NCBI GenBank assembly: GCA_947371955.1
Contig: CANBRQ010000021.1
Span: 1-37,054 of the forward strand
Reading direction: 5' to 3'
DNA length: 37,054 nt
Source of the DNA: Paracoccaceae bacterium
Lineage (GTDB): Bacteria; Pseudomonadota; Alphaproteobacteria; Rhodobacterales; Rhodobacteraceae
The translations under genes were made by a program, and so were the position numbers. Positions 8,750 to 10,035 of the stretch are shown here, in pieces. The notes under the pieces are model-generated. The model saw only the letters and a program-made list of their open reading frames with translations, did no database searches and was not told where the DNA came from. The stretch's first letter is position 1. Every line of letters starts with the position of its first letter.

Positions 8750-9370
8750 ATGAAAAACCTTCTTCCGGGCATCCTTGCCATGGCGGTCATCGTCGTGGCC
8801 TCCAACATCCTCGTCCAGCATCCGATGGGCGCTTACCTGACCTATGGCGCGCTGACCTATCCGCTCAGCTTTCTGGTCAATGACATAACCAACCGCCTGT
8901 CAGGCGTGCGCGCGGCCCGCACCGTGGTGCTGGCAGGCTTTGTCGCGGGCCTGATCTGCTCGGTCATCGGCACACAAATCTACAATGATTTCGGGCCCTT
9001 GGTAACCCTGCGCGTGGCTCTGGGCTCTGCCACAGCCTTCCTCGTCGGCCAGTTGCTGGACGTCACAATCTTCGACCGCCTGCGCCGGGCCGAATGGTGG
9101 CGTGCCCCCCTGATCTCTACCCTCATGGGCTCCACCATCGACAGCGTGATCTTCTTCACCATCGCTTTTGCAGCATCCCTGACCTTCCTTGAGCCCTGGA
9201 ATGACGTCTCCTGGGCCGCCGCCCCCGGCCCGCTTCTGGGCCTTGGACCGCAGGTTCCGTTCTGGATTTCGCTGGCCCTCGCCGACTGGTGCGTAAAATT
9301 TGGGATCGCTTTGTTCGGCCTGCTGCCGTTCCGTTTGATTATTGCAAGAATGACCACACGGGTAGCGTAA
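8750..9370 (+). CDS. Queuosine precursor transporter (YhhQ/VUT family)
   Basis: A 206-residue integral membrane protein of the VUT/YhhQ family, which imports queuosine precursors (preQ0/preQ1) for modification of tRNA wobble position 34. The family signature is clear: a first segment AMAVIVVASNILVQ, then GALTYPLSFLVNDITNR, and later STIDSVIFFTIAF and LGPQVPFWISLALADWCVKF. About six membrane segments are visible and the length is normal for the family. The leader upstream may be structured. A separate leader element and arfB follow on the same strand. Confidence 0.92.
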   Translation: MKNLLPGILAMAVIVVASNILVQHPMGAYLTYGALTYPLSFLVNDITNRLSGVRAARTVVLAGFVAGLICSVIGTQIYNDFGPLVTLRVALGSATAFLVGQLLDVTIFDRLRRAEWWRAPLISTLMGSTIDSVIFFTIAFAASLTFLEPWNDVSWAAAPGPLLGLGPQVPFWISLALADWCVKFGIALFGLLPFRLIIARMTTRVA

Positions 9371-9376
9371 AAGGTT

Positions 9377-9406
9377 TTGACAAACACAAAATCTGTGGCA
9401 CCCTCT
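9377..9406 (+). promoter_or_regulatory. Possible promoter of the arfB leader transcript
   Basis: A perfect TTGACA (-35 type) lies at 9377-9382, seven bases after the transporter stop. At 17-18 bases downstream the sequence is ACCCTCT, a poor sigma-70 -10 box but loosely like the C-rich -10 of heat-shock sigma promoters. The assignment is tentative. Confidence 0.3.
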
Positions 9407-9425
9407 CCTTATCGGCAACAATTTC

Positions 9426-9442
9426 GAAAGGAGGTGATCCAG
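9426..9442 (+). promoter_or_regulatory. Extreme Shine-Dalgarno, 17 bases complementary to the 16S 3' end
   Basis: GAAAGGAGGTGATCCAG is the exact complement of the 3' end of 16S rRNA as known in this group (CTGGATCACCTCCTTTC). The core GGAGG lies 7 bases before a GTG start, the ideal spacing. Ordinary ribosome-binding sites in this window match only 4-6 bases. Confidence 0.8.
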
Positions 9443-9498
9443 TGTCTAGAGTGATATTGGAGAGTGGTGTCGGGACAGCTGGAGGGCTCGTTTTCTAG
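9442..9498 (+). CDS. 18-codon leader peptide upstream of arfB
   Basis: A short ORF, GTG to TAG, encoding MSRVILESGVGTAGGLVF. I do not recognise the peptide. Support for translation is the exceptional ribosome-binding site directly in front and the fact that its stop codon coincides with the base of a stem-loop (9497-9510). A longer frame open from 9289 includes it, but the upstream part overlaps the transporter gene and has no good start. It is probably a leader or uORF whose translation, rather than product, matters for the RNA folding downstream and for arfB. Whether the peptide itself has a role cannot be told. Confidence 0.55.
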   Translation: MSRVILESGVGTAGGLVF

Positions 9499-9560
9499 GG
9501 GCAACCCCCTTAAAGACGGCCAAAGGTTGGATGGATGCCCTAACTGGCCCATCTCCTTGG
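9497..9560 (+). ncRNA. Structured leader RNA between the leader ORF and arfB
   Basis: Two stem-loops lie between the leader stop codon and the terminator. The first is AGGGG-caac-CCCCT (9497-9510). The second is a longer interrupted stem, CCAA(A)GG...ATGG paired with CCAT...CCTTGG (9520-9560). The AG of the leader stop codon TAG forms the base of the first stem, so a terminating ribosome would melt it. Together with the terminator they make an attenuator-like arrangement. Confidence 0.5.
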
Positions 9561-9568
9561 AACTCGGG

Positions 9569-9601
9569 AAGGGTCGCTGGCGAAGCGGCCCTTTCTCATT
9601 T
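9569..9601 (+). terminator. Rho-independent terminator directly before arfB
   Basis: A 10-bp stem (AAGGGTCGCT with AGCGGCCCTT, one T-G pair), loop GGCGA, then TCTCATTT. It ends about 11 bases before the arfB ATG, so arfB is expressed only by read-through or from a promoter hidden inside the hairpin. Confidence 0.75.
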
Positions 9602-9612
9602 AAATCAACAGC

Positions 9613-10035
9613 ATGCTGCACATCACCGACGCCATCCAAATCGCTGACTGGGAACTGTCAGAGCAATTCGTCCGCGCCTCTGGCCCGGGCGGGCAGAACG
9701 TCAACAAAGTCTCCACAGCCGTCGAACTGCGGTTTGAGGCGGAGCGGTCGCCCAACCTGACCCCTTCCGTCAAAGCACGCCTGAAACGCCTCGCCGGGCG
9801 GCGCTGGACGAACGAGGGCGCCATTGTGATACAGGCCGAGGAAACCCGCAGTCAGGCGCAAAACCGCGAACTCGCCCGCGAAAGGCTGGTCGCGATGATC
9901 CGCGAGGCGCTGATCCCGCCGAAGCGCCGGTTGGCGACCAAGCCGACCTACGGCAGCATCAAGCGGCGGCTGGTGGCCAAGAAGGTCCGCAGCGATGTGA
10001 AATCAAACCGCCAGACGCCCGAGGACGAGGATTAG
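9613..10035 (+). CDS. arfB: Ribosome-rescue peptidyl-tRNA hydrolase ArfB (YaeJ)
   Basis: A 140-residue codon-independent release factor that frees ribosomes stalled at the end of broken mRNAs. The catalytic GGQ motif is at residues 26-28 (RASGPGGQNVNKVSTAVELRF). The basic C-terminal tail (KPTYGSIKRRL, KKVRSDVKSNRQ) is the part that enters the empty mRNA channel. Length is normal for the family. There is no recognisable ribosome-binding site before the ATG, and a terminator sits immediately upstream, in sharp contrast to the strong site of the leader ORF. This suggests low, regulated expression. Its stop overlaps that of pncB on the other strand by two bases. Confidence 0.95.
   Translation: MLHITDAIQIADWELSEQFVRASGPGGQNVNKVSTAVELRFEAERSPNLTPSVKARLKRLAGRRWTNEGAIVIQAEETRSQAQNRELARERLVAMIREALIPPKRRLATKPTYGSIKRRLVAKKVRSDVKSNRQTPEDED

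Follow-up and report, generated by a model that had tools for sequence, protein, structure and literature searches.

The window, by which we mean the whole stretch of 37,054 nucleotides analyzed here (contig CANBRQ010000021.1 of the Paracoccaceae bacterium assembly GCA_947371955.1), carries a small RNA element between two protein-coding genes, with all features described below on the forward strand. Upstream lies the gene for a VUT-family transporter (8750-9370; Vut_1, E 3.7e-27), which is the more constant neighbor of the element, while downstream lies arfB (9613-10035 with the ATG at 9613; RF-1 domain, E 1.6e-22), a neighbor only. The intervening region contains a conserved upstream block, an extended Shine-Dalgarno (SD) sequence, an 18-codon ORF, a segment resembling the 3' tail of 16S rRNA and a terminator-like hairpin.

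Architecture and predicted fold of the element

The upstream block at 9378-9400 (TTGACA...TGTGGCA) was recognized by eye in genus-level relatives, where it reads TTGACA...TGTGNCA and in some cases forms an imperfect inverted repeat, and is a candidate promoter or operator. Since a scan of 9300-9660 with the sigma-70 promoter consensus returned no match, the block could represent an operator or else a divergent promoter. The 5' end of the RNA probably falls within 9416-9425 (CAACAATTTC); the alignment to the Rfam model CC2171 discussed below starts at 9416.

The extended SD, GAAAGGAGGTGATCCAG, occupies 9426-9442. Measured against the 16S rRNA 3' ends of same-family genomes, which served as reference because the window's own assembly lacks or withholds this end, all 17 positions are complementary, in agreement with the first-pass annotation. 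The complementarity is exactly 17 nt, because the match to the antisense 16S sequence of these genomes covers 17 of 17 positions and breaks off at the flanking base on either side. Read in antisense, most of the 17 fetched same-family 16S genes contain TTAGAAAGGAGGTGATCCAGCCGCAGG (in longer form TTAGAAAGGAGGTGATCCAGCC), and base 17 of the complementary stretch doubles as the G with which the GTG start codon begins. AAAGGAGGTGATCC occurs a single time in the window's own assembly, at 9427, and the reversed pattern, a control for chance, gave no matches in the listed genomes of the own-assembly, order and phylum searches. Six relatives (L006, L008, L009, L020, L021 and L023) exhibited one-base changes or a one-base deletion within this stretch, with variants such as GGTGACCC, GGTGGTCC and GGTGGCC; all six have an 18-codon ORF, including L023 with its one-base deletion.

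The SD leads into an ORF at 9442-9498 that starts with GTG, consists of 18 codons plus TAG and encodes the rreR-type peptide MSRVILESGVGTAGGLVF. Both its length and the overlap of its stop codon with a stem-loop had already been claimed from the letters and were confirmed, with the stop hairpin (9497-9510) beginning within the stop codon.

The predicted minimum free energy of the window element is -84.4 kcal/mol compared with -63.1 for shuffled sequences (z -4.8; none of 200 shuffles as low). In this fold the 3' half of the SD and the start codon form a start hairpin (9438-9461, pairing 9438-9446 with 9453-9461), in which the spacer and start codon are predicted to pair with codons 5-7. Codons 12-14 pair with a segment past the stop hairpin in an ORF-end helix (9476-9529, pairing 9476-9480 with 9525-9529 in the window), and a 16S-tail mimic at 9542-9558 (AACTGGCCCATCTCCTT) pairs through 9550-9558 with SD positions 9428-9436. 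The last structure is a terminator-like hairpin at 9566-9596 (9566-9578 with 9584-9596). The earlier claim of a 10-bp rho-independent terminator at this site stood in part: a hairpin does precede arfB, but its stem has 13 bp and its T-tract, TTTCTC only, is weak and partly pairs into the stem. As to a separate short transcript, the terminator-like hairpin is conserved, yet a consensus terminator scan of 9300-9660 returned no match.

Covariation was scored on alignment A1, built from 43 elements of group A (the Rhodobacterales type defined below, with 49 members; L003, L007, L012, L059, L133 and L143 were left out, the latter two because the terminator end was not found in either). In a 36-pair structure 95.4% of the cells were paired, and two-sided changes were present in 16 of the 36 pairs compared with a mean of 7.4 in shuffled alignments, none of 500 reaching as high, although the shuffles ignore relatedness. 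Sliding the partners lowered pairing to 42.9-55.8%, a comparison that favors the 36-pair structure in that it was derived from A1 itself. Two-sided changes affected nine of the 12 scored pairs of the terminator-like stem, all three of the stop hairpin and four of six in the ORF-end helix (scored columns 9477-9482 with 9523-9528; 84.1% of cells paired). The start-codon hairpin and the SD-mimic helix, paired in 98.8% and 98.0% of cells, respectively, exhibited none, because the SD is invariant in A1. Since the pairing between SD and mimic thus lacks two-sided covariation in A1, the mimic could be conserved for some other reason. The mimic variants CAUCUCC, CACCUCC and CGCCUCC all keep the pairing via G-U/G-C or U-A/U-G exchange. 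Outside A1, one anecdotal compensation was noted in L039, where the SD is changed to AAAGGAGGTGCTTC and the 3' segment GCACCTCCTT restores pairing.

Outside the Rhodobacterales type, a closing helix joins codons 3-5 to a segment ahead of the terminator-like stem in groups B and C. Among the 80 of 90 elements of these groups in which a terminator-like hairpin was found, the element's own partner paired better than swapped partners did on average in 51 of 60 (group B) and 16 of 20 (group C). A common alifold of group C gave nearly no structure.

Distribution and identity

With the window DNA as query, matches at E <=0.001 were obtained in 38 of 61 genomes, its own included. Of 196 genomes belonging to the order, 140 contained GGAGGTGATCCRRTG, counted as places that were not each confirmed as elements, while AAAGGAGGTGATCCARTG was present in 25 of 86 alphaproteobacterial genomes and absent from all 213 non-alphaproteobacterial genomes of the phylum. 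A census with GAAAGGAGGTGATCC (113 of 196) was discarded in favor of the GGAGGTGATCCRRTG census because this sequence also matches antisense 16S genes: of 20 matches fetched, 17 were 16S and three were elements.

Elements were assigned to groups A to D according to the length of the ORF and the pattern of the peptide, with 14 duplicate or near-duplicate loci left out and loci without GGAGGTGATC[CG][AG][AG]TG remaining ungrouped. As all members of group A have 18 codons by construction, their ORF length is not evidence, and we relied instead on 33 same-family loci gathered by DNA similarity and not by ORF. Among these, 31 have an ORF of 18 codons (29 loci together with L023, which has the one-base SD deletion, and L030, whose start is displaced by a shortened SD), the exceptions being L026 with 23 and L037 with 26. 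TAG, TAA and TGA are all in use as stop codons, and the position at which the ORF ends is nearly fixed in the family. The wider pattern search (at least 120 stretches) underlies a table of 134 ORFs. Among the matches listed there, GTG is the start codon in 110 and ATG in 24, a restriction to these two that follows from the RTG required by the pattern, and 130 have ORFs of 14-33 codons.

The four length exceptions among the matches listed (L092, L116, L125 and L163) have 57-104 codons. Three of them, from Azospirillum (L092, L116 and L125), combine the same extended SD and an MSH start with a different, longer ORF of 57-59 codons whose beginning, by eye, resembles a secreted or lipoprotein-type sequence. 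L163, in a record titled as an Acidobacteriaceae MAG, has the 21-base motif followed by a 104-codon ORF with hydrophobic stretches and may represent a mis-binned contig on which an extended SD precedes an ordinary gene.

We take the window element to be what Hahn et al. 2017 named rreR, and regard this identity as very probable. rreR is said to encode 18 aa in the Rhodobacter/Roseobacter lineage and rreB 14 aa in Bradyrhizobiaceae; the rreB RNA reportedly binds 30S subunits, co-sediments with them and is weakly translated. The 17-nt SD, the GTG start and ORFs of 18 aa in Rhodobacter/Roseobacter and 14 aa in Bradyrhizobium are common to the RNAs of Hahn et al. 2017 and those described here, where both forms were found. 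Where rreR reportedly has SD complementarity of at least 16 nt to the 16S 3' end and an 18-aa ORF in this lineage, the window has 17 of 17 and the same-family loci have 18 codons with the two exceptions given above. This is a small RNA already described and widespread.

A paper that cites the work of Hahn et al. describes, in the parts covered here, unstructured small proteins of 18 aa from Dinoroseobacter shibae and 14 aa from Bradyrhizobium japonicum (PMC7217052). From length, genus and mass we infer that the 18-aa protein is the rreR product: the 18-aa ORF of L063, a Dinoroseobacter record, has a computed mass of 1.96 kDa, and 1.9 kDa is listed in those parts of PMC7217052.

A more distant relationship emerged with the Caulobacter sRNA CC2171 (Rfam RF01867). 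The window aligned significantly over the whole model (1-159), with E values of 2.2e-5 (291-base search), 8.7e-5 (whole genome) and 0.0042 (56-kb search), although its 32.2 bits fall short of the gathering score, 75. Other loci close this gap, the relative L031 reaching 81.7 bits. Of 289 genomes in the class, 61 contained matches to the model, nine of them above the cut-off; among 14 control genomes, Caulobacter vibrioides alone did. The 5' block, ORF start and 3' hairpin are common to CC2171 and the window element, while the closing helix and ORF length vary by lineage. No Rfam family, riboswitches included, reached its gathering score in the window, and neither a tRNA nor a tmRNA was found there. 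CC2171 was also predicted in Mesorhizobium huakuii as MH_s33, according to the portion of PMC5596092 covered. Judged by sequence, the element appears to be one lineage form of a kind of alphaproteobacterial RNA that includes Bradyrhizobium rreB and, distantly, CC2171. The rre and CC2171 names are joined here; the literature covered, in the parts available, does not link them. A comparable RNA of Sinorhizobium meliloti, rnTrpL/peTrpL, is also small, has a 14-codon ORF and arises by early termination, but is leaderless and derives from trpE(G) attenuation (PMC7298713, parts covered), whereas the window element has an extended SD and is without a constant downstream gene.

Genomic neighborhood and arfB

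The first-pass annotation had proposed a leader that sets read-through into arfB, and had named a lack of conservation ahead of arfB in relatives as grounds for giving this up. When 900 nt or more of downstream sequence was required, a same-strand arfB followed the element within 600 nt in 33 of 42 cases in group A, 0 of 57 in group B, 1 of 24 in group C, 0 of 9 in group D and 1 of 6 unsorted elements, so that frequent linkage in group A stands against a single case among 90 in groups B to D. The lack of conservation thus largely holds, and in many alphaproteobacterial lineages the element stands beside other genes. In four of the nine group A exceptions arfB is farther off (740-1135 nt from the SD). 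Group B has no comparable partner, the best neighbor cluster among the 60 clusters listed being common to 9 of 65 loci at most. The VUT gene, in turn, lies upstream of 48 of the 49 Rhodobacterales-type elements and is a more faithful neighbor than arfB, which suggests inherited gene order; the VUT/arfB arrangement looks like a lineage habit.

arfB was also found without the element. Within 600 nt ahead of the conserved ArfB motif, seven of ten arfB loci (L044, L045 and L048-L052) had no SD-like site at up to three mismatches and no AGGAGGTG. Six of these seven belong to genomes in which the element is located elsewhere (G025, G031, G019, G023, G040 and G048). Assigning the orientation of the downstream gene by longest ORF gave a mixed result for group A (24 same strand, 21 opposite, four none) and was dropped because arfB is mostly on the same strand in this group. 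In the window, ATTTAAAT (9598-9605) directly precedes the arfB ATG, where it could act as the -10 element of a leaderless arfB transcript; the handful of relatives compared by eye did not share it.

A cis attenuator of arfB, in which 30S availability would set read-through of the 9566-9596 hairpin, draws on the window and 37 other Rhodobacterales-type elements with a same-strand arfB 180-317 nt past the SD, and on a terminator-like stem that ends 16 nt from an arfB ATG without an obvious SD. This short distance makes some dependence of arfB on read-through possible in this lineage. The constant linkage to arfB that an attenuator calls for was, however, not found: the gene is not within 600 nt downstream of 89 of 90 elements of other types and of nine of 42 of this type, and stands without the element in the six genomes that carry it elsewhere. 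We consider this explanation highly unlikely and set arfB attenuation aside as the purpose of the element on the linkage evidence. Judging from gene order, the element is not an arfB leader by design. As an alternative, the same annotation had offered an independent small RNA binding 16S tails, which agrees with the distribution, the anatomy and earlier reports.

Selection on the small ORF

The maintenance of the ORF, with the same stop position in nearly all same-family loci (31 of 33), would be expected if the element were a gene for a functional 18-aa peptide. The variation, however, has no third-position excess: mean entropies in A1 at codon positions 1, 2 and 3 were flat (0.73, 0.74 and 0.79), giving no sign of amino-acid selection above base selection. 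The well conserved codons 6-7 sit in a helix, codons 16-18 are free to vary, and among the matches listed the peptides of different lineages are unlike in sequence and length. The 14-aa and 18-aa peptides were, moreover, unstructured in solution according to the parts of PMC7217052 covered. Codon 19 in A1 is TAG in 20, TAA in 12, TGA in 11 and TGG in no sequences, but the Fisher p of 0.0003 for the missing TGG carries no weight because the selection of A1 for 18 codons makes TGG impossible. A peptide function therefore strikes us as improbable. Taken together, the retained stop position and the flat codon-position variation suggest that what is under selection is probably the architecture of the RNA and the end point of translation more than the peptide.

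Predicted pairing between the SD and an internal copy of the 16S tail

For 71 of the 158 elements, no more than three of 60 shuffles reached the best duplex between the SD and the rest of the RNA, where about eight such elements were expected, an excess that is not a probability because the elements are related; in the other 87 the duplex was not unusual compared with shuffles. Unusual duplexes were found in 28 of 49 group A, 30 of 65 group B, 8 of 25 group C, 3 of 10 group D and 2 of 9 other elements. The mimic lies mostly ahead of the terminator-like stem in group A, and within the ORF in group D and many members of group B. Its place differs between lineages, being ahead of the 3' hairpin in Rhodobacterales and within the ORF in Bradyrhizobium and many others.

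Calculated for naked RNA, with helix 45 and the ribosomal context ignored, opening the 17 nt in the window RNA costs 14.6 kcal/mol, and the duplex with 16S rRNA yields -32.2 kcal/mol for the full SD versus -10.1 for the 7-nt AAGGAGG. The mean opening costs, likewise for naked RNA, are 12.1 kcal/mol in group A (48 of 49 elements), 6.4 in group B, 6.1 in group C and 12.1 in group D. By this calculation the costs in groups B and C could be paid by an ordinary SD, which counts against a contest over the clamp. In two same-family elements, L026 and L030, the SD is shortened to AAAGGAGGTG (duplex -14.9), the extension is otherwise lost and the ATG has moved closer, the displaced start of L030 still opening an ORF of 18 codons. 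As both retain CACCTCC, the stop hairpin and the terminator-like stem, and therefore the hairpins and the core of the clamp, capture through 17 nt is not indispensable.

A proposed model of a self-clamped RNA gated by 30S subunits

We favor, with moderate confidence, the identification as rreR combined with the following mechanism, modeled on sequence and predicted folds. The element would be an independent small mRNA/sRNA, roughly 180 nt long, that clamps itself and is gated by 30S subunits. In the free RNA the ribosome-binding site would be clamped too tightly for an ordinary SD to open it, and predicted helices further tie the end of the ORF and the stop codon to the 3' half. The extended SD would allow a free 30S subunit to win the contest against the clamp. 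With the SD-16S duplex reaching into the start codon, initiation would be slowed, and the balance between short rounds of translation ending in the stop hairpin and the clamped fold may determine how stable the RNA is and how far its 3' CUCC is exposed.

That exposure could also be the point of the RNA: as a trans-acting regulator, it would upon 30S capture or translation free its 3' CUCC/CCUCC for the SDs of other mRNAs and thereby report free 30S subunits. One and the same segment is both clamp and anti-SD-like sequence, and it varies mostly in ways that preserve pairing to GGAGGUG (98.0% of cells); furthermore, an anti-SD motif common to the Caulobacter sRNAs SisA-D is likely used against targets (PMC12559287, parts covered). 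Other lineages, however, have their best SD complement within the ORF or have no unusual one, and we regard a trans-acting regulator as unlikely. A bolder form of this reading, in which rre RNAs are sensors of 30S availability at large, would have the RNA's own copy of the 16S tail compete with the ribosome for the SD, such that only a free 30S subunit opens the clamp via the extended duplex and the freed anti-SD segment acts on other mRNAs, with a mimic whose differing places look as if it had evolved repeatedly; we hold it to be distinctly less probable still.

Beside the published account, the covarying fold, the 16S-tail mimic, the flat codon variation, the short-SD variants and the test of arfB linkage are added here, and none was encountered in the parts of the literature covered. 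These results indicate that a striking 17-nt SD beside arfB belongs to a known alphaproteobacterial small RNA and not to a dedicated arfB switch. With the self-clamped, 30S-gated RNA proposed here, the length of this SD, so far without explanation, would become a matter that can be tested, as a contest in which the ribosome faces the RNA's own copy of the ribosome tail.
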